Positions 5,643-54,076 of a stretch of 64,000 bases of DNA are shown in pieces (position 1 is the stretch's first letter; each line of letters starts with the position of its first letter). The translations under genes were made by a program, and so were the position numbers. A model generated the notes under the pieces. That model was not told the origin of the DNA. It searched no databases and saw only the letters and a program-made list of their open reading frames with translations. This DNA comes from Pseudodesulfovibrio hydrargyri (GTDB lineage Bacteria > Desulfobacterota > Desulfovibrionia > Desulfovibrionales > Desulfovibrionaceae), in contig NZ_LKAQ01000004.1 of NCBI RefSeq assembly GCF_001874525.1, positions 559,531-623,530 of the forward strand, read 5' to 3'.

Positions 5643-5816
5643 CTAGCCCTCGGCCCCGGCGGGCCTGCCCGCCATGCCGCAGTAGCCGGTGCCCTTTTCC
5701 CGGTCCACCCAGCGCCACATCATGCACTGGGCCACCTGGCACATCTTCATCTTGTCGTCGTGGGTCATGAGCAGGGGACAGAACAGGAATTTCGCGTCAT
5801 CCACATGAACAAGCAT
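5643..5816 (-). CDS. Small cysteine-containing protein (57 residues)
   Basis: A short gene starting at the ATG at 5816 with a strong AAGGAG five bases upstream. The product has four cysteines (CPLL, MCQVAQC and YCGMAG contexts) and a cluster of methionines and tryptophan. Cysteines at such spacing could bind a metal, but I recognise no named family. I infer that it is real from the ribosome-binding site and its placement in front of fliJ. The function is unknown. Confidence 0.7.
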   Translation of the reverse strand: MLVHVDDAKFLFCPLLMTHDDKMKMCQVAQCMMWRWVDREKGTGYCGMAGRPAGAEG

Positions 5817-5840
5817 AGGGCCACTCCTTGCGCAAGAATG

Positions 5841-5872
5841 AAAAACGGCGCGCCGAATCACCGGCGCGCCGT
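5841..5872 (-). terminator. Terminator of the secreted-protein gene
   Basis: Minus strand: ACGGCGCGCCG, six-base loop, CGGCGCGCCGT, then T5. It lies about 30 bases after the stop of the gene at 5900-7213. Confidence 0.85.
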
Positions 5873-5899
5873 CAACATAGCGTGTATCCGGACCGCTGG

Positions 5900-7213
5900 C
5901 TAGCTGCCGGGCACGGCCTCGCGCCCGGCCACTTCCTCGGTCCGGGCGGCCACGGGGCCGGGCGCGGTCCCGGCCTGCGGGGCCTGGGCCACGGGTTGCG
6001 GAGTCTCGTCGCCCAGGGTGACCAGGGTCTCCATGCCGAGCATGGACTTGAGCTTTTCGAGCGCCAGCACCGAGCGGCGGGCCTTGTCGTCCAGGACCTC
6101 GGCGTATCCGCCGTCGCGGATGACCTTGGCGTAGTCGCTGTCCTGGAGCTTGGGATCGTCCTTGAAGCGGGCCTCGAAGTTGCGGGCGTACTCCTGGATC
6201 AGCCCGTCCACGCGGCCTTCGGGCATGCCCAGAATGCTTTTGAGGCCCTCGGCCAGGTACTCGGGAGTCAGATCCGGAGACTCGACCACCTTGGAGAAGC
6301 TGCGCACGTAGCGCAGGGTGCCGTCATAGATGTGCGAGCGCTGGACCACGTTCATGCCCGCCCAACCGGCCTTGAGCCACTTGAACAGGAAGACCGTGGA
6401 GCGCGGCGCGGCCGCGTCCTGCTCCACGAACACCTGGACCGAACCCGAGGCGTAGGTGAAGGTGTCCATCCAGCCGATCATGCCCCGGTTGAGGCCCTCC
6501 TGGCCGGAGTAGAAGTAATCCCAGCGGGTGTCGTCCAGGATGGCTCCCTTGCGCCCCACGTCGGACTTGCCGTCCTGCTGGGACACGGAGATGAGCACGT
6601 TTTTGCCCTGGAACTTGACCAGGATCATCAGCCGGTTCAGGTCATAGCCGTAGTAGGCCTCGGCAAAGGAGTCGGGCGTGGTCATCTCGTATTCCCGGCC
6701 GCGAACCACCACGGGGGCGTCCTCGGTCAGGCCGGGCAGCTCCTCCCACATCCCTCTTGACCGGGACAGGAACTCGCTGCCCTTGTGCCAGCCGGACATG
6801 CGCAGGACCGCCGGACAGAGCAGGTAGTTGGGGATGTCCGGGTTGTAGAAGAACTTGAGGATGCGCGTCAGGTCCGTGGACACGTCGCGGCGCAGGCAGA
6901 TGCCCCGGCCGCCGAACCGCTTGGCCGGTTCGATGTCCTTGGGGTCCGCGTCCACGTTGACCACGAAGTCGAGCATGGGCCGGATGTCGGCCACGGAGAG
7001 CTGTTCGGAGGGGTCCTCGAGCACGCCGAAAAGATGGGATATGCCCTTTTCCACGTCACCGGCCAGCGGCTCGGGCTTGGGGGAAAGGTTCACTTCCATG
7101 AGCCCCTCGGGCTCGTCCTCGGCCAGGGCGGGCATTGCGGTCAGGCACAGCGCGAACAGCGCCAACACAAGAACCCACCGTCCCCGAATACGGGGCTGTT
7201 TTTTATTTTCCAT
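5900..7213 (-). CDS. Secreted protein of unknown function
   Basis: A 437-residue protein with a Sec signal peptide (basic start, hydrophobic VLVLALFALCLTAMPALA, likely cut after ALA at about residue 31). The rest is mixed alpha/beta with no further membrane segment, and the last 40 residues are a Pro/Ala-rich low-complexity tail. I do not recognise a domain. It stands alone between its own promoter (7288-7316) and terminator (5841-5872). It is probably periplasmic. Confidence 0.75.
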   Translation of the reverse strand: MENKKQPRIRGRWVLVLALFALCLTAMPALAEDEPEGLMEVNLSPKPEPLAGDVEKGISHLFGVLEDPSEQLSVADIRPMLDFVVNVDADPKDIEPAKRFGGRGICLRRDVSTDLTRILKFFYNPDIPNYLLCPAVLRMSGWHKGSEFLSRSRGMWEELPGLTEDAPVVVRGREYEMTTPDSFAEAYYGYDLNRLMILVKFQGKNVLISVSQQDGKSDVGRKGAILDDTRWDYFYSGQEGLNRGMIGWMDTFTYASGSVQVFVEQDAAAPRSTVFLFKWLKAGWAGMNVVQRSHIYDGTLRYVRSFSKVVESPDLTPEYLAEGLKSILGMPEGRVDGLIQEYARNFEARFKDDPKLQDSDYAKVIRDGGYAEVLDDKARRSVLALEKLKSMLGMETLVTLGDETPQPVAQAPQAGTAPGPVAARTEEVAGREAVPGS

Positions 7214-8660: not shown

Positions 8661-8786
8661 AGGTAGCGCCACAATATGGGTATTTGTCCCACCGCGCTCC
8701 ACATGCCGTCATTCTTCTCCCAAAATGGAGCGAATCGGGTGCGCAGCACCCGACAGCGGCTCAGTCCCTCGTGCTTGGAATAGGCT

Positions 8787-8872
8787 TTGATTCGCCCCGT
8801 CCTGGGGCTCACCCCTTCGGGGCGTTGCGGAAGGACCGCAACATCCAAATCCGCTGTCCTGCGGATTTGTCG
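8787..8872 (+). repeat. Three-hairpin repeat (family A), copy 1
   Basis: It shares its start (TTGATTCGCCCCG) and its end (CAAATCCGCTGTCCTGCGG and on to TTTGTCG) with 42527-42610. Between them are a CCCC-TTC-GGGG hairpin and a second hairpin whose stem differs between copies: GTTGCGG/CCGCAAC here, GCGCCT/AGGCGC there. This copy runs straight into the family B element. Confidence 0.7.
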
Positions 8873-8974
8873 AGAGTGGGTCAGCTGTGCATTTTTCGAG
8901 GGACCGCCTGACTGCGGCGTACCCCAGTACGTGAGGATCAGGCGGTCCCTCGAGAGATGTGCAGATGGCCCGCT
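8872..8974 (+). repeat. Two-stem structured element (family B), copy 1
   Basis: Left flank GAGAGTGGGTCAGCTGTGCA, then a 16-base-pair outer stem (8896-8911 with 8938-8953). Next comes an internal loop, CTGCGG against TGAGGA, and an inner hairpin CGTAC-CCCA-GTACG (8918-8931). The right flank is ATGTGCAGATGGCCCGCT. The copy at 52008-52107 has the same plan with different stem bases. It could be a structured RNA or a REP-like DNA repeat. Confidence 0.75.
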
Positions 8975-8994
8975 CTCGGAAGCCGCCTATCGCG

Positions 8995-10374
8995 CTAGTT
9001 CTTCTGGCACGCAGTAACGAAGGCCTTCGCTATATCCGGATTGGAACCAAAATGAAGGTGTACGTACGACCCCAAAGTATTCCAGGTAACAAAGCCTTCC
9101 GGCACTTCAAGAGGGCCCTTGCGACCTGCCAGATCATAAACCGGATGCAGGTTTTCAGGGGGAGGGGTCTGGATGGAGGAGTAGTGGAACTCGTGTCCGC
9201 GCGCGAAGGTCCCCGTCGGGCCGAGCATGGTGGCCTCGCGGACCGTGACCTCGCGGTAGCCCAGGGCGCGGAACTTCTCGCCCATCTCGGCGCGCACCGG
9301 GTAGACCCCGGCCATGGCGTAGCGGCCCCGGCCGGTGACGATATCGTTCATGAGCAGCATGAACCCGCCGCATTCGGCGTAGACCGGGCGGCCGGACTCG
9401 CAGAACTCCTTGATCTCGCGGCGCATGCGCGTGTTCTGGCCGAGTTCGAAGGCGTACAGTTCGGGATAGCCCCCGCCGAGGTACAGCCCGTCCAGGTGCT
9501 CGGGCAGGCGGGTGTCGTTCAGGGGGGAGAATTCGACGAGACGCGCGCCCGCCTCGCGCAGCAGGCGGAGATTCTCCTCGTAGTAGAAGCAGAACGCGTT
9601 GTCGCGAGCCAGGCCGATGGTCACCTTGGGCAGTTGGGGCACGGGCTCGAACGGGGCCACGGCCTCCACCTCGGGCACGAAGTGCAGCAGCGCGTCCGGG
9701 TCGAGCCCGCTCTCCACCCAGTCGGCCAGCCGCTGATAGCGGTCCAGGTCCGGGCCGTCCTGATCCGGGGTGACCAGGCCGAGGTGGCGCGAAGGGGTGC
9801 TGATGTCCTCGTCGCGGCCGAGGCAGCCGAGCACGGGCACGTCGGGCACCAGGGTCATGGCCTCGCGCAGCAGTTCGGCGTGGGACGGACTGCCCACGCG
9901 GTTGAAGATCACCCCGGCGAGGGTCACCTCGGGGTCGAAATCCGCGTACCCGGCCACCAATGCGGCGGCGGACCGGGCCATGGACCGCGCGTCCACCACC
10001 AGGATGACGGGCAGGCCGAGGATCTTGGCCATCTGGGCCGTGGACCCGGCGTCGCCCGTGCCGGAGATGCCGTCGAACAGCCCCATGACCCCTTCGATCA
10101 CGGCCACGTCGCTGTCCGCCGCGTAACGGTTGAAGATGTCCTCGTTGGTGGACTCGCCGAGCATCCAGCCGTCCAGGTTGTGGCTGGGCACCGGGCGGCC
10201 GTCCCGGGCGCAGGCCAGGGCGTGATGTCCGGGGTCGATGAAGTCCGGCCCGCACTTGAACGGCTGGACCTTCAGCCCCCGGCGGGCCAGGGAGGCCATC
10301 AGCCCCAGGGAGATGGAGGTCTTGCCGCACCCGCTGTGCGTTCCGGCGATGACGAATGCCCTGACCGCGCCCAT
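8995..10374 (-). CDS. cbiA: Cobyrinate a,c-diamide synthase (CbiA/CobB type)
   Basis: A 459-residue ATP-dependent amidotransferase that converts the a and c carboxylates of cobyrinate (or its hydrogenobyrinate relative) to amides in corrinoid synthesis. The N-terminal dethiobiotin-synthetase-like domain starts with the P-loop GTHSGCGKT at residues 11-19. The C-terminal glutaminase domain has the Cys nucleophile in YAECGGFML near residue 330 and a late HEFHYS histidine. GGGAG stands before the ATG. The upstream TPR gene ends 13 bases away. No other cobalamin gene lies in the window. Confidence 0.92.
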   Translation of the reverse strand: MGAVRAFVIAGTHSGCGKTSISLGLMASLARRGLKVQPFKCGPDFIDPGHHALACARDGRPVPSHNLDGWMLGESTNEDIFNRYAADSDVAVIEGVMGLFDGISGTGDAGSTAQMAKILGLPVILVVDARSMARSAAALVAGYADFDPEVTLAGVIFNRVGSPSHAELLREAMTLVPDVPVLGCLGRDEDISTPSRHLGLVTPDQDGPDLDRYQRLADWVESGLDPDALLHFVPEVEAVAPFEPVPQLPKVTIGLARDNAFCFYYEENLRLLREAGARLVEFSPLNDTRLPEHLDGLYLGGGYPELYAFELGQNTRMRREIKEFCESGRPVYAECGGFMLLMNDIVTGRGRYAMAGVYPVRAEMGEKFRALGYREVTVREATMLGPTGTFARGHEFHYSSIQTPPPENLHPVYDLAGRKGPLEVPEGFVTWNTLGSYVHLHFGSNPDIAKAFVTACQKN

Positions 10375-21446: not shown

Positions 21447-21562
21447 GCCTCCGGCGGCCGGGGGAAGGGGAGGAAAAACCCTTTGAAAAGGGTTCTTTCC
21501 TCCCCTTCCCCCGGACCCCCATCCCCTCCTTTTCCTCAACTTCTTATAGCCGCTTCGCGGGG
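21447..21562 (+). repeat. Palindromic intergenic repeat (family C)
   Basis: It begins GCCTCCGGCGGCC and has a stem of about 26 base pairs with one bulge (21458-21514), rich in GGGGAAGGGG/CCCCTTCCCC. This is followed by CCCCCATCCCC and a GCCGCTTCGCGG tail. It separates argJ from the HD hydrolase gene, both on the minus strand. Confidence 0.75.
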
Positions 21563-27033: not shown

Positions 27034-27092
27034 GGCGACCGTGGGAAGGCTTAGGGGATGCCTCCGGCGGCCCCTTCGGGGTGGCCAGGGCG

Positions 27093-28638: not shown

Positions 28639-28736
28639 TTCCGCTTTCTATCGTGCTGAGGGATTTCAGGCAAGGGCGAAGGAGGCTTGCCTCTTTTCCC
28701 CAAGGCCGTCGAGCCAGCTTCGAGTGCAAGGCGCAA

Positions 28737-28787
28737 AAACGGTTCCAGGCCGAAGCGTACCCGGCGTACGGAGGGTTTGAACCGTTT
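28737..28787 (+). repeat. Hairpin-in-hairpin, possible distant family B element
   Basis: AAACGGTTC (28737-28745) pairs with GAACCGTTT (28779-28787). Inside is CGTAC-CCGGC-GTACG (28756-28770) followed by GAGGG. The plan recalls family B (variable outer stem, CGTAC/GTACG inner stem, GAGG on the 3' side), but the internal loop sizes differ. Confidence 0.45.
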
Positions 28788-28821
28788 GCGGCAACGCGGC
28801 AATCGGGCCTGTATCGGCGGC

Positions 28822-30051
28822 CTAGCCCTCGCCGCGCAGGGCCTGGATGGGGTCCAGGGAGGCGGCCTGGCGGGCGGGCTTGAGGCCGAAGACCAGCCCC
28901 ACGGCCTGGGACCCGGCCAGGGCCATGAAGAACGCCTTCCAGGAGAACTGGATGGTCAGGATGTCGAGGCGCGACAGGAACTGGCCCAGCCCCAGGCCGA
29001 GGAACAGGCCGAGCACCCCGCCGAGCATGGTCAGGGCGCAGGCCTCGACCAGGAACTGGAGCATGATGGCCGAATTGCGCGCGCCCATGGCCTTTTTCAG
29101 GCCGATCTCCTCGGCCCGCTCCGAGACCGAGATGGAGAACAGGTTGGCCAGCACGAATCCGCCCACGAGCACGGCGATGCCCGCGGTCACGCCCAGGAAG
29201 ACGGTCAGACCGCCCTTGAAGAACGCCAGGAACTTGAGGATCTCATCGGCGGTGACGATGGAGAAGTCGTCGTCCTCCTCGGGCGCGAGGTGGTGCAGGT
29301 GCCGGAGCAGGGAGCGCAGGTTCTCGGTGTGCGCGGGCATGTAGTCCGGCTCCACGAACTTGACGCGCAGGGCGCGGAAGTATTTGCGATCCATGTTGTA
29401 GCGCTGGACCAGGGTGGACAGGGGAATGATGATCCGGTTGTCCACGTCGCCGCCCCCGCCCGAGGTCACGCCCCGGTAGGAGAGCTTGCCCACCACCTGG
29501 AACGGGATGCCCGAGATGTACAGGACCCGGCCCACGGGCGACTCGCCGCCGAACAGTTCGCGGGACGGTGTTTCGCCCAGCAGGGCGACCTTGGCCCCGA
29601 TGCGCTCGTCCTCGGCCGACAGGTCGCGTCCCTCGCTGAGCGGCCAGTTCCAGGCCTTGGAATAGCCCTCGGTGGTGCCCACGATGACCACGTCGTGGTA
29701 AGTGCGGTTGCCCGCCCGGACCGTCTGTCCGTACTTGGCCCGCATGGGCAGCACCTGGTACGCGCCGGGCAGGGAATCCTGGATGCGCGCGGCGTCCTCG
29801 CGGCTGAGCGTCAGGGTGCGCATGCCCACGGCCCGTTTCTGGAAGTTGCCGCCGAAGACCAGGGCCGCGTCCGGCCCGAACATGTCGACCATGTCCACGG
29901 CCATGCGGTTGGCCCCGTCCACGGCCGTGATGATCAGGGTCAGGGAGGCGATGCCGAAGGCCACGCCCAGGACCACGAAGATGGAACGCAGCTTGAAGGC
30001 CCAGACGGCCTCCAACCCCATGCCCGCCACCCGGGATACGGTCCGTATCAT
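28822..30051 (-). CDS. MacB-type ABC transporter permease
   Basis: A 409-residue FtsX/MacB-like permease. One membrane segment near residues 20-42 is followed by a large periplasmic MacB_PCD domain (about 45-280) and three C-terminal membrane segments (near 290-310, 340-365 and 375-395). It ends in LKPARQAASLDPIQALRGEG, typical of the family. It has no ATPase domain of its own. The matching ATPase and adaptor genes are at 32341-34130, separated from it by a chemoreceptor gene on the other strand. I infer that they still form one exporter. Confidence 0.88.
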   Translation of the reverse strand: MIRTVSRVAGMGLEAVWAFKLRSIFVVLGVAFGIASLTLIITAVDGANRMAVDMVDMFGPDAALVFGGNFQKRAVGMRTLTLSREDAARIQDSLPGAYQVLPMRAKYGQTVRAGNRTYHDVVIVGTTEGYSKAWNWPLSEGRDLSAEDERIGAKVALLGETPSRELFGGESPVGRVLYISGIPFQVVGKLSYRGVTSGGGGDVDNRIIIPLSTLVQRYNMDRKYFRALRVKFVEPDYMPAHTENLRSLLRHLHHLAPEEDDDFSIVTADEILKFLAFFKGGLTVFLGVTAGIAVLVGGFVLANLFSISVSERAEEIGLKKAMGARNSAIMLQFLVEACALTMLGGVLGLFLGLGLGQFLSRLDILTIQFSWKAFFMALAGSQAVGLVFGLKPARQAASLDPIQALRGEG

Positions 30052-30356
30052 GCGCCCGCCGGCCCGGCTCCGGGAAGCGGCCGGCTGCCGCGCTCCGCGA
30101 GGGGGGAATATTTCGATCCGTCTGTCTGTTCGATCATGCCGATACCCCGGCGGCCGCCCTTTTTGTTTGTCCGCGCCGCCTGGGGCCACCCTAGCACAGG
30201 AGCCGGGCGGTGCGCCACGCCGGATTGCGTTCCGCCCTGGGCACTTTGTCCGCCAAGTTCCACTATTACGAATACTGTTATTTATAATGGAATGTTTTTG
30301 AGCCCATGCGATAGTGGCAAGTGTCAACGTTCACTCAGCCAAACAGAGAGACCACT
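30052..30356. other. 305-base divergent region between permease and chemoreceptor
   Basis: The right half (about 30255-30300) is AT-rich and contains TATAAT at 30283-30288, a possible -10 for the chemoreceptor gene. The -35 (TTCCAC at 30258, 19 bases away) is poor. No gene is seen. Confidence 0.4.
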
Positions 30357-41690: not shown

Positions 41691-41711
41691 GACGCCGGCT
41701 TGCGATAACGG

Positions 41712-41743
41712 CCCCTCGAAAAATGCACAGCCGGCCCACTCTC
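41712..41743 (-). repeat. Family B flank without its hairpin
   Basis: On the minus strand the 31 bases from GAGAGTGGG to CGAGGG match the left flank of the element at 8872-8902 with two differences. The two-stem part is absent, and a short right-flank-like stretch (GGCCGTTATCGC) follows directly. It looks like a deletion form or an empty site. Confidence 0.65.
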
Positions 41744-41797
41744 CCAAGCCTCTGTTCGGGCCATGGGGAGAAGACATGGGATGAGGACGCGCCCGGC

Positions 41798-44026: not shown

Positions 44027-44091
44027 GATGCCTCCGGCGGCCGGGGCGCTGCCCTGGACCCTCCAAAACTTTTTGTCGCCGCTTCGCGGAG
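44027..44091 (+). repeat. Family C repeat, short form without the large stem
   Basis: GATGCCTCCGGCGGCC border, 25 bases lacking the large hairpin, then CAAAACTTTTTGTCGCCGC and the GCTTCGCGG hairpin. It lies upstream of the PerM-like gene, next to a full copy in reverse orientation. Confidence 0.6.
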
Positions 44092-51869: not shown

Positions 51870-52007
51870 AACATTCACTTCCAAGCGCCCTACCGGGAGT
51901 GACTCGGGCGGCAAAGCCGCCCGACAGCGGCTCCCGCCCCCCGCGCAGCGCTGTGCGCAAGTATCTTCTTCCCGAACCGCCCTCCCGCGCCCGCACAAGG
52001 CTTGGAA

Positions 52008-52107
52008 GAGTGGGGCAGATGTGCATTTTCTTCCTGGGGCTTTCACCGCAGCGTAGCCGTCTACGTGAGGATGAAAGCCCCAGGGAAAAATGTGAAGATG
52101 GCCCGCT
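52008..52107 (+). repeat. Two-stem structured element (family B), copy 2
   Basis: Left flank GAGTGGGGCAGATGTGCA, then a 13-base-pair outer stem (52033-52045 with 52072-52084) and an internal loop CCGCAG against TGAGGA. The inner hairpin is CGTAG-CCGT-CTACG (52052-52065), and the right flank is ATGTGAAGATGGCCCGCT. Both stems differ in sequence from copy 1 yet remain perfectly paired, while the loop and flanks are conserved. Confidence 0.75.
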
Positions 52108-52131
52108 ATCGCGAGCCGCCCGCCGCGCTCC

Positions 52132-53757
52132 CTACTTACCAAAGGGGCATTTGGGGAAGGAACAGGACTTGCAATTCATGCAGAAGCCGCCCTCGCCCAG
52201 ACGGGCCAGGTCCTTGCGGCGCAGTTCCTGTCCGGCCAGAATGCGCGGCAGGACCACGTCGAAGGCCGTGGTCTTGTAGAACAGGGCGCAGGCCGGGACG
52301 CCGATGATGGCGGCGCCGCCAAGCTTGCCCACCAGGGTCATGGTGCCGGGGAGCATGGGCACGCCGTAGAGGTCGCCGTGCAGGCCCGCGTCCACCAGGG
52401 CGGCGCGGGTGACGTCGTCCGGGTCCACGGACATGCCCGCCGTGGTGATGACCACCTCGCAGCCGCCGTCGAGCATGGCCGTGGCCGCCTTGGTAATGGC
52501 CTCGCGGTCGTCGGGCACGATGTCGGTCATGTGCACGGTGCAGCCGAGCCTGATGACCTTGGACGAGACGATCGGGATGAACTTGTCCTCGATGATCCCC
52601 TGGAAAACCTCGGTGCCGGTGACCAGGATGCCCACCTTGGCGGGCGCAAGCGGCAGCACGGACAGGACCGGGCCTTCGCCCAGCGCGGTCAGGGCGCGGC
52701 TGAACCGGTCGCGGGAGATGTACAGGGGAATGGCCCGGGTCCCGGCCACGCCCTTGCCCTCGGGCATGAGCGAACCGTCGTGGCGGGTGGCCAGCATGAC
52801 GTCCGGGGAAAGATTGAAGCGGGAGAGCGCGTCCAGGTCGATGGACAGCATGCCCGGATACTCGGCGAAGAAGTTGATCTTGCCCTCTTCCGGGTTCGGG
52901 TCGTAGGTGATGCCCGGCCCGGCCATGCGCTTTGCGAACGCCTTGACCGCGTCGTTCTCGTGGACCCACTCGTCGCCGGGCACGGCCTCGCCGTCGTAGA
53001 CGTTGAACTTGCCGATGCGCTGCAGCCGGCAGACGTCGCCGATGTCGAAGACGTCGCCCGCCTTGGTGATCGGGCCCTTGGACTCGCCGGGCTCGATGCC
53101 GGTCATGTCGTGGACCGCCTGCTTGCCCACGGCCTGTTCCACGGGCACAATCTTGAGGTCCGGAGCGTCATCGGCGCACAGCACGCCCTCCATGGACTCG
53201 TACGGGGCCTCGCCCTGACAGCCGCGGCAGATGGAGCCGTCCGAGCCGGGGTACGCCTCGCCGCAGACCGGGCAGACGTCGATGGAGGTCATGTGGCCGT
53301 GGCCGAGGTATTTCTTGGACACGGTCACGGGCCGGATGGAGCAGATGGTGTCCCCGGCCTCCTCGATCTCCCTGAAGAGCTGGTCGGTGTCCTGCTCGGC
53401 CTTGGGCTTTTCCTTCATAAACCAGGCGCGGATCTCGGGCCATTTGGCCAGCTTCTCCTGGTCGATGGCCACGCGGACCCCCTGGCCGGTGAATTTGTCG
53501 TACAGGGACACGGCGTAGCGCCCCAGCAGCTTGACCTTCATCCAGTTGTTGCCCGTGGAGCACAGGGTCAGAAGCTGGACCGCGTCGGGCAGGCATTTGC
53601 CGGACTCGACCAGGGCCTCGAACAGGGTGCCCTCGGGCAACCTCGCCTTGGCCGCCTCCACCATGTATCCGCCGATGAGCAGGCCGGGAGCCGGATAGCC
53701 GTGAAATTCCCTGGCCTTTTGCTTGAATTCCTCAAACGTGTACTGTCCGATGTTCAT
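52132..53757 (-). CDS. FmdE-MoCF fusion protein with terminal cysteine cluster
   Basis: A 541-residue protein. The N-terminal FmdE-type domain (about 1-170) has FHGYPAPGLLIGGY and CLPDAVQLLTLCSTGN. A zinc ribbon follows, with CPVC near 195 and CRGC about 12 residues on. The middle is MoeA-like, and the C-terminal MoCF molybdopterin-binding domain (about 355-510) has VGILVTGTEVF and VVITTAGMSVDPDDVT. The last residues, CMNCKSCSFPKCPFGK, could ligate an Fe-S cluster. It is likely a cytoplasmic factor in molybdenum or tungsten cofactor handling. GAGGCG precedes the ATG. Confidence 0.88.
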   Translation of the reverse strand: MNIGQYTFEEFKQKAREFHGYPAPGLLIGGYMVEAAKARLPEGTLFEALVESGKCLPDAVQLLTLCSTGNNWMKVKLLGRYAVSLYDKFTGQGVRVAIDQEKLAKWPEIRAWFMKEKPKAEQDTDQLFREIEEAGDTICSIRPVTVSKKYLGHGHMTSIDVCPVCGEAYPGSDGSICRGCQGEAPYESMEGVLCADDAPDLKIVPVEQAVGKQAVHDMTGIEPGESKGPITKAGDVFDIGDVCRLQRIGKFNVYDGEAVPGDEWVHENDAVKAFAKRMAGPGITYDPNPEEGKINFFAEYPGMLSIDLDALSRFNLSPDVMLATRHDGSLMPEGKGVAGTRAIPLYISRDRFSRALTALGEGPVLSVLPLAPAKVGILVTGTEVFQGIIEDKFIPIVSSKVIRLGCTVHMTDIVPDDREAITKAATAMLDGGCEVVITTAGMSVDPDDVTRAALVDAGLHGDLYGVPMLPGTMTLVGKLGGAAIIGVPACALFYKTTAFDVVLPRILAGQELRRKDLARLGEGGFCMNCKSCSFPKCPFGK

Positions 53758-54076
53758 ATTCGCCTCGTCTTCTATAGAGTATCCGGCGTTGCCGCCGCCG
53801 CGATTTCTCCACTTTGCCGCTGAAAAAGGAAACGCACTATGCCATGGCCGTGACATTGGCGCAACACGGACTCACCTTGCATGTTCCTGCACTACGTTTG
53901 AACGCACATCGGCCCTGATTTTGAAGCCTGGGAGAAATTTTCGCGGAATGCGGCCCGGTGCGGCTTGGGGCAGAACGAATCCGGCGACGAAAAAAGGGGC
54001 CGCCCCGTTTCCGGAGCGGCCCTGTCTCAGCCTTGATGCCTAGCGAGGTGACGTTACGTGGCCAGGCTGTGCCGGT
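53758..54076. other. Gap between dsrP and the FmdE-type gene
   Basis: Holds the dsr terminator (53990-54022) and about 230 bases upstream of the FmdE-type gene in which I find no convincing promoter or gene. Confidence 0.5.
53990..54022 (-). terminator. Terminator of the dsrMKJOP operon
   Basis: Minus strand: GGGCCGCTCC, loop, GGGGCGGCCCC, then T6. It is about 55 bases past the dsrP stop. Confidence 0.88.

Follow-up and report, generated by a model that had tools for sequence, protein, structure and literature searches.

What kind of sequence is the hairpin that sits behind a CobB/CbiA-type gene in this 64,000-nucleotide stretch of Pseudodesulfovibrio hydrargyri DNA (the window), and do the paired changes in its stems mean that its fold is under selection? 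The sequence-only reading described two copies of one plan and offered either a structured RNA or a mobile hairpin of the kind moved by a TnpA-REP-type enzyme. We believe the hairpins are probably a family of miniature, non-autonomous IS5-type transposable elements (MITEs) with a conserved hairpin core. The conserved many-copy architecture and the mobile repeat of the earlier proposal survive in this answer, the TnpA-REP route does not, and the RNA becomes a ranked rival. We hold the MITE reading because of the IS5-type ends and 4-bp target duplications of related elements, an insertion sequence (IS) at locus L355 that has the same ends, and the ends of IS5 relatives on plasmids. The reading is firmer for the elements found across the phylum (phylum-type) than for copies like the first two in the window (window-type).

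The hairpins of the window and their family

Copies 1 and 2 lie where they were first described and follow one plan, but they are not a two-copy element, since the window holds two more members: a full divergent copy and an internally deleted remnant (Table 1). The outer stem of copy 1 has 16 perfect pairs, with CTGCGG opposite TGAGGA, and that of copy 2 has 13 pairs, with CCGCAG opposite TGAGGA. The claim that both stems differ between the copies while pairing is kept holds; these are strong hairpins whose arms have changed in concert. Against 200 dinucleotide shuffles the folding z is -10.60 on the plus strand and -6.45 on the minus strand for copy 1, and -7.07 and -7.01 for copy 2. The conserved flanks are borne out as well, and the pairing extends into them, which makes the unit about 127 nt long. 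In the alignment of copies the middle arms vary, whereas the tip (CYGCRG / CGTAS..STACG / TGAGGA) and the flanks stay conserved.

Table 1. Hairpin copies, their parts and neighbouring genes in the 64-kb window, by position
Feature	Position	Strand	Basis
Upstream module of copy 1, GGAGCGA..GACAGCGGCTC	8727..8762	+	most of the 16 aligned copies have it on their upstream side
Extra palindromic module (CCCCTTCGGGGCGTTGCGG..GGATTTG), between GGCTTT and the core of copy 1	8789..8869 (limits approximate)	+	L007, L015, L043, L088, L090, L220
Copy 1, whole near-palindrome, 127 nt	8860..8986	+	model R1, 114.7 bits, E 6.1e-29 in window; partly by construction (copy 1 is among the 16 sequences that built R1)
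Copy 1, left variable arm TCGAGGGACCGCCTGA	8896..8911	+	sequence reading; partner 8938-8953
Copy 1, conserved tip CTGCGG / CGTAC..GTACG / TGAGGA	8912..8937	+	sequence reading; conserved in alignment A2
Copy 1, right variable arm TCAGGCGGTCCCTCGA	8938..8953	+	sequence reading
CobB/CbiA-type gene	8995..10374	-	Pfam GATase_3, CbiA; TAG stop 8 nt beyond copy 1
Copy 3, divergent phylum-type, full	28694..28829	+	model R2, 97.9 bits, E 3e-23; absent from R2 building set
MacB/FtsX-type permease gene	28822..30327 (start uncertain)	-	Pfam MacB_PCD, FtsX; TAG stop abuts copy 3
Internally deleted window-type remnant (left arm and right outer tail)	41695..41755	-	R1, 26.3 bits; sequence
Copy 2, whole near-palindrome	51994..52119	+	model R1, 120.0 bits, E 2.2e-30; partly by construction (also among the 16)
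Copy 2, left variable arm CCTGGGGCTTTCA	52033..52045	+	sequence reading
Copy 2, conserved tip CCGCAG / CGTAG..CTACG / TGAGGA	52046..52071	+	sequence reading
Copy 2, right variable arm TGAAAGCCCCAGG	52072..52084	+	sequence reading
FmdE and molybdopterin-binding-domain gene	52132..53856 (start uncertain)	-	Pfam FmdE, MoCF_biosynth; TAG stop 12 nt beyond copy 2

A single strict pattern recovers 16 copies from the genome. The covariance-model search that had been suggested as a check, run with a model built from those 16 (R1), gives 92 matches in the genome at E<=0.01; both strands are often counted at one place, and the matches reduce to 48 distinct places, 46 window-type and 2 divergent, with one extra 26-bit remnant excluded from the count. 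Most copies keep the stem paired, the opposite of what had been named as evidence against a selected structure. Among 40 relatives searched, R1 has matches at E<=1e-3 in 19 of the 24 from the same genus and in 1 of the 16 from outside it. A second model, R2, was built from 12 divergent forms without any window copies. With the scoring limited to 11 candidates in each genome, it matches 97 of 297 genomes taken from across the phylum and 70 of 199 genera, and named records with the divergent form belong to Pseudodesulfovibrio and Fundidesulfovibrio. R2 also finds copy 1 of the window at E 1.9e-10 and copy 2 at E 1.9e-8, and at E<=0.01 it finds no place in the window beyond copies 1, 2 and 3. The plan across the phylum, from 25 loci read and 75 copies tabulated, runs AGGCTGTTCAAAAA, CAGATGCAAGGCG, a variable arm, GAGGCGTAC..GTACGCCGCAG or a variant of it, a second variable arm, CAACGCCGCAGATG and TTTTTCAACAGCCT. 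The hairpins are a dispersed repeat family with one hairpin plan, present in many sulfate-reducing bacteria.

Several copies are surrounded or interrupted by further modules. The word GACAGCGGCTC of the upstream module occurs twice in the window against 0.09 expected, and the palindromic module next to copy 1 recurs in other copies and also within the CCGGCGGCC repeat of L220, which belongs to another repeat family. Six loci carry an insert of about 62 nt at one internal site (AAGTGAATTGT..AGGTACA): L238, L234, L246 and L244 in genome G002 and L256 and L206 in G049. Inserts of at least 39 nt are seen in the tip loop of L087 (G000, this genome) and L163 (G006), with the words GCTCGGTCTTAGAGA and ACAGCAG in common. 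Other small palindromes (CCTCCGTAGCAGGACTACTGCGGAGG, and the TTCGACAGG..CCTGTCGAA type) lie within hairpin arms at L338, L341, L351, L356 and L366 (G184, G155). Half-elements stand in tandem with an 86-nt pitch beside one full element at about 5750-6050 of G260:C131 (L343, L346, L349, L352). The start of a different repeat family, GCCTCCGGCGGCC, is found on the plus strand of the window at 21447-21459, 27060-27072 and 44030-44042, with 7 matches at up to one mismatch against 1.05 expected; this family consists of long hairpins with variable arms, often upstream of the hairpin element.

Ends, target duplications and the seat behind stop codons

The phylum-type elements of other genera end in CAGG[C/T]TGTTGAAAAA, read inward. 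They are short and gene-less, and they share their terminal inverted repeats with an autonomous IS. That IS, at L355 in genome G260, is 1342 bp long, has the ends of the hairpin element and is bordered by CTAG on both sides. Its 357-aa open reading frame contains DUF772 and DDE_Tnp_1 and scores 263.5 bits with the NCBIfam model IS5_4, for which the cut-off is 140. G260 holds both this IS and hairpin elements. Full-length phylum-type elements have ends of the same kinds as the IS, plus an extra stretch of 25 nt on the left; between the interior of the IS and the hairpin core no homology was found by eye. A pattern search for the end motif covered six genomes; each had between 0 and 141 matches, and a single pair of ends was spaced 1.3 kb apart. 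From this search the L355 IS is the sole one found in the phylum with the element's ends.

The duplications point the same way. At 14 full-length loci the 4-bp flanks are exact duplications in 6 (CTAA three times, CTAG, CTAT and ATAG) and differ by one mismatch in 4 more. Taking all 45 end-to-end readings, which count some loci in both orientations, 8 have identical 4-bp flanks, where 2000 shuffles gave 1.58 on average and never more than 6. Three of four distant, plasmid-borne IS5 relatives of the transposase that were fetched have ends of the CAGG..GAAAA type and identical repeats (TTAG, TTAG and CTAA); the fourth has no such ends within 350 nt. A relative of the transposase on a viral contig has TTAG followed by CAGGCCGCGGAAAAAGG at its left end, the one end seen. 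Two further viral contigs with the left-end motif, L398 and L399, were set aside as carriers of a mover, as each has one end and no transposase was identified in them (open reading frames were listed for L399). Phage and plasmid DNA gave no match to the element itself.

Within the genus the picture is less complete. Of 36 genus genomes, 2 hold transposases resembling the one at L355, and the case with three copies has other ends. In this genome no close transposase was found at E<=1e-10. The IS1182-like elements of G044 were considered as a mover and rejected because their ends differ (TTCAGACTGCTGACAAACC), and for those of G012 no match to the element's ends was established. Target duplications were not found at window-type copies, and the ends of these copies have drifted from CAGGCTGTTGAAAAA. 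The original reading named a match to a known transposon end as evidence against itself; the wider family has such a match, but the diverged ends of the copies in the window do not. The probable membership of the window-type copies in a MITE family rests on hairpin homology. We infer that elements have been mobilised within the genus.

Where the elements sit can be examined through their neighbours. We surveyed 158 copies, 157 from the genus and one from another family, the relatives' copies being sampled from the best-scoring, with genes called by a model derived from nine in-frame seed genes. Gene calling gave a neighbour beyond the right end for 153 copies, of which 137 have it on the opposite strand. 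The distance between the element and the stop codon of this opposite-strand neighbour is -1 to 12 nt in 72 of the 137 and 60-90 nt in 40. For copies with both neighbours, 68 of 125 lie within 12 nt of the stop against 6.5 expected from uniform placement. TAG is the stop in 58 of 72 genes of the near class, compared with 19 of 40 in the far class (p 5e-4) and 53 of 106 upstream genes (p 4e-5). In the phylum-wide set 45 of 75 right ends and 9 of 75 left ends fall between -12 and 20 nt from an opposite-strand stop, a contrast that is overstated because in full-length copies the left end was placed 25 nt inside its true position. The end of copy 3 meets a CTAG (28822-28825) that includes the TAG stop of the adjacent permease gene.

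The MITE reading offers a simple reason for this seat. Copies would abut stop codons because YTAR-like targets contain TAA or TAG, although the fit is less exact for window-type copies, which stand a few nucleotides off the codon. An IS5-type transposase would insert the elements in trans at YTAR-like sites; insertion at a stop codon would rebuild the TAA or TAG and be tolerated, which would leave copies tight behind gene ends.

Inherited places, exchanged arms and the rival explanations

Comparison of relatives shows occupied and empty sites. An element stands behind the cobB-type stop at 3 of 30 loci read (G000, G002 and G049), the frame being uncalled in at least L178 and L182, and in G017 an element starts in the other orientation about 115 nt further on. 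Behind the FmdE-type stop it is present at 5 of 30 loci (G000, G002, G006, a divergent type in G019 and a truncated one in G049). When 15 loci of this genome were compared by eye with G002 and G049, the 30 comparisons gave a core in 10, a short form or remnant in 11 and no element in 9. Where a place is shared the arms can be very different. Of 25 pairs between G000 and G002 with both flanks matched, in 5 the arms differ in 17-20 letters out of 28 while the flanks are 83-95% alike, and in three of these five at least one arm type is identical to one at another locus; the smaller arm differences between pairs are partly one-base shifts. Inverted tips are present in 4 of the 48 copies in G000 and in 1 of the 42 in G002; at one orthologous place the tip of L040 is inverted relative to L154. 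In L149 the tip has been palindromised, and L077, L255 and L246 are chimeric, each combining arms of two types that do not match.

Recombination between copies together with template switching at the palindrome would probably lie behind this turnover. Positions are often inherited while arms are replaced by types from other loci, and the two processes would produce paired changes at the level of DNA. Paired arm changes alone are not proof of selection on RNA, because arms are swapped, flipped and made chimeric at inherited places. The earlier statement that they are the mark of selection on structure is weakened accordingly, as processes at the DNA level can produce them without selection; an excess of G.U over A.C on one strand keeps some selection possible. 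There is a caution here for RNA-family discovery in general: in dispersed palindromes, exchange and template switching can make covariation alone misleading.

Other origins for the family have to be weighed against the MITE reading. A palindrome of the REP/REPIN type moved by a RAYT (Y1) transposase, an explanation already disfavoured, would account for many intergenic palindromic copies beside gene ends. Of 36 genus genomes, 17 have matches to Y1_Tnp, and in some the genes are intact, among them G021, which is rich in elements and has several. However, no Y1 domain is found in four element-rich genomes (G002, G006, G041 and G049), and this genome (G000) and G017 have only fragments, the one in this genome being 75 aa long. 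The wider family moreover has 4-bp duplications and IS5-type ends, which REPs are not known to have. The Y1_Tnp searches reject RAYT as the general mover even though G021 is rich in both, and we consider this origin highly improbable. We also think it very unlikely that the hairpin is a transcription terminator or a stabiliser of mRNA 3' ends that hosts keep behind genes. Its very stable stem and the 72 of 137 neighbours with a stop no more than 12 nt away fit such a role, but neither strand of copies 1 and 2 has a U-run after the hairpin, the 40 copies of the far class have a separate terminator in between in the cases read by eye, and most cobB-type and FmdE-type orthologs do without the element.

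The more serious rival is a structured RNA, a regulatory 3' UTR element or a small RNA, whose function maintains the conservation and whose mobility is secondary or past. In the phylum-wide alignment 91.7% of cells are paired, compared with 35-39% in slid controls, and 876 cells have changes on both sides against 239 in shuffles. Plus-strand G.U outnumbers A.C by 247 to 58 (27 columns against 6, p 0.0003), and still by 109 to 51 without the six richest columns. In all four elements that were compared the fold is better on the plus strand than on the minus, and the core has conserved non-canonical spots (CAGATG..CAGATG, GCAAGGCG and CAACGCC). In the genus the outer stem has 693 G.U against 67 A.C, mostly in fixed columns. 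The covariation and the G.U bias of the phylum-wide alignment are suggestive of an RNA fold on the plus strand. Yet the alignment is fitted to a model and leans towards pairing, its columns share ancestry, and the wobble bias of the variable stem in the genus is weak (125 G.U against 91 A.C). The arm exchanges at inherited places and the gain and loss between close species in the by-eye comparisons also speak against this rival, and the better-folding plus strand is antisense to the abutting gene. Rfam has no match for the element: there are 0 matches in the window at the gathering threshold and, at permissive thresholds, none on the element in sets of 12 and 9 loci. The permissive matches of the 12-locus set lie off the element and are chance-like (miRNA and similar). 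We judge a structured RNA of this kind unlikely.

Part of this evidence remains outside the MITE explanation all the same. The interior of a typical MITE is free to change, whereas this core is kept over many genera and 43 of its 46 pairs have changed on both sides in the phylum alignment; core conservation and G.U bias fit selection on a single-stranded fold. It is possible, if rather doubtful, that the core is a structured single strand that moves, either a hairpin RNA shared across the phylum or a folded ssDNA domain, and that it rides on IS5-type ends while its plus-strand fold is selected. Its covarying stems, conserved bulges and tandem G.A pairs, its docking at stop codons and the renewal of its arms by exchange might then be features of one such element, a suggestion we make just as tentatively. 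If it were true, the conserved part of a transposable element would be a structure and not a gene, and a functional strand-biased core would make the family a mobile structured nucleic acid.

Comparison with known systems

Whatever its core does, this widespread repeat of the Desulfobacterota has apparently gone unrecognised so far. We found no description of the hairpin family as a MITE in the literature searched, supplements lying outside that search, and the element's sequence words gave one match in published text, in an unrelated paper. The ISAzs10-type IS5 elements (NCBIfam IS5_4) have CAGG..GAAAAA ends with identical TTAG or CTAA repeats in 3 of 4 records; they carry a transposase, whereas the hairpin elements are gene-less. 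REP/REPIN-RAYT systems resemble the hairpin family in their many intergenic palindromes, but the hairpin family has no consistent Y1 transposase and does have IS5-like ends and duplications. The ERIC repeats of enterobacteria are near-palindromes of about 127 nt, are intergenic and have insertions at fixed internal sites. The hairpin family is like them in all three respects, but at E<=0.01 a 246-nt blastn query found nothing in 20,395 E. coli records.

The 'multicopy nucleotide sequences' of Geobacter form intergenic families, one of which has 24 copies with a central palindrome GRCGTAGCGCTGCTACGCC and is said to be present in Desulfotalea too; they are described there as predicted short RNAs and not as MITEs (PMC2700814, PMC2996986). 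As described, that palindrome resembles the CGTAG..CTACG tip (PMC2700814, PMC2996986). MITEPsy1 of Pseudomonas syringae is reported as a gene-less, IS5-related MITE of about 100 nt with a 4-nt target duplication, CTAG or YTAA, and 18-nt terminal inverted repeats that resemble those of an IS5-family element (PMC3189936). The hairpin family is likewise small and gene-less, with IS5-like ends and a 4-nt duplication. MITEPsy1 has different ends and is present in few copies and few strains (PMC3189936), whereas the hairpin family has a conserved covarying core, extends across the phylum and exchanges its arms.
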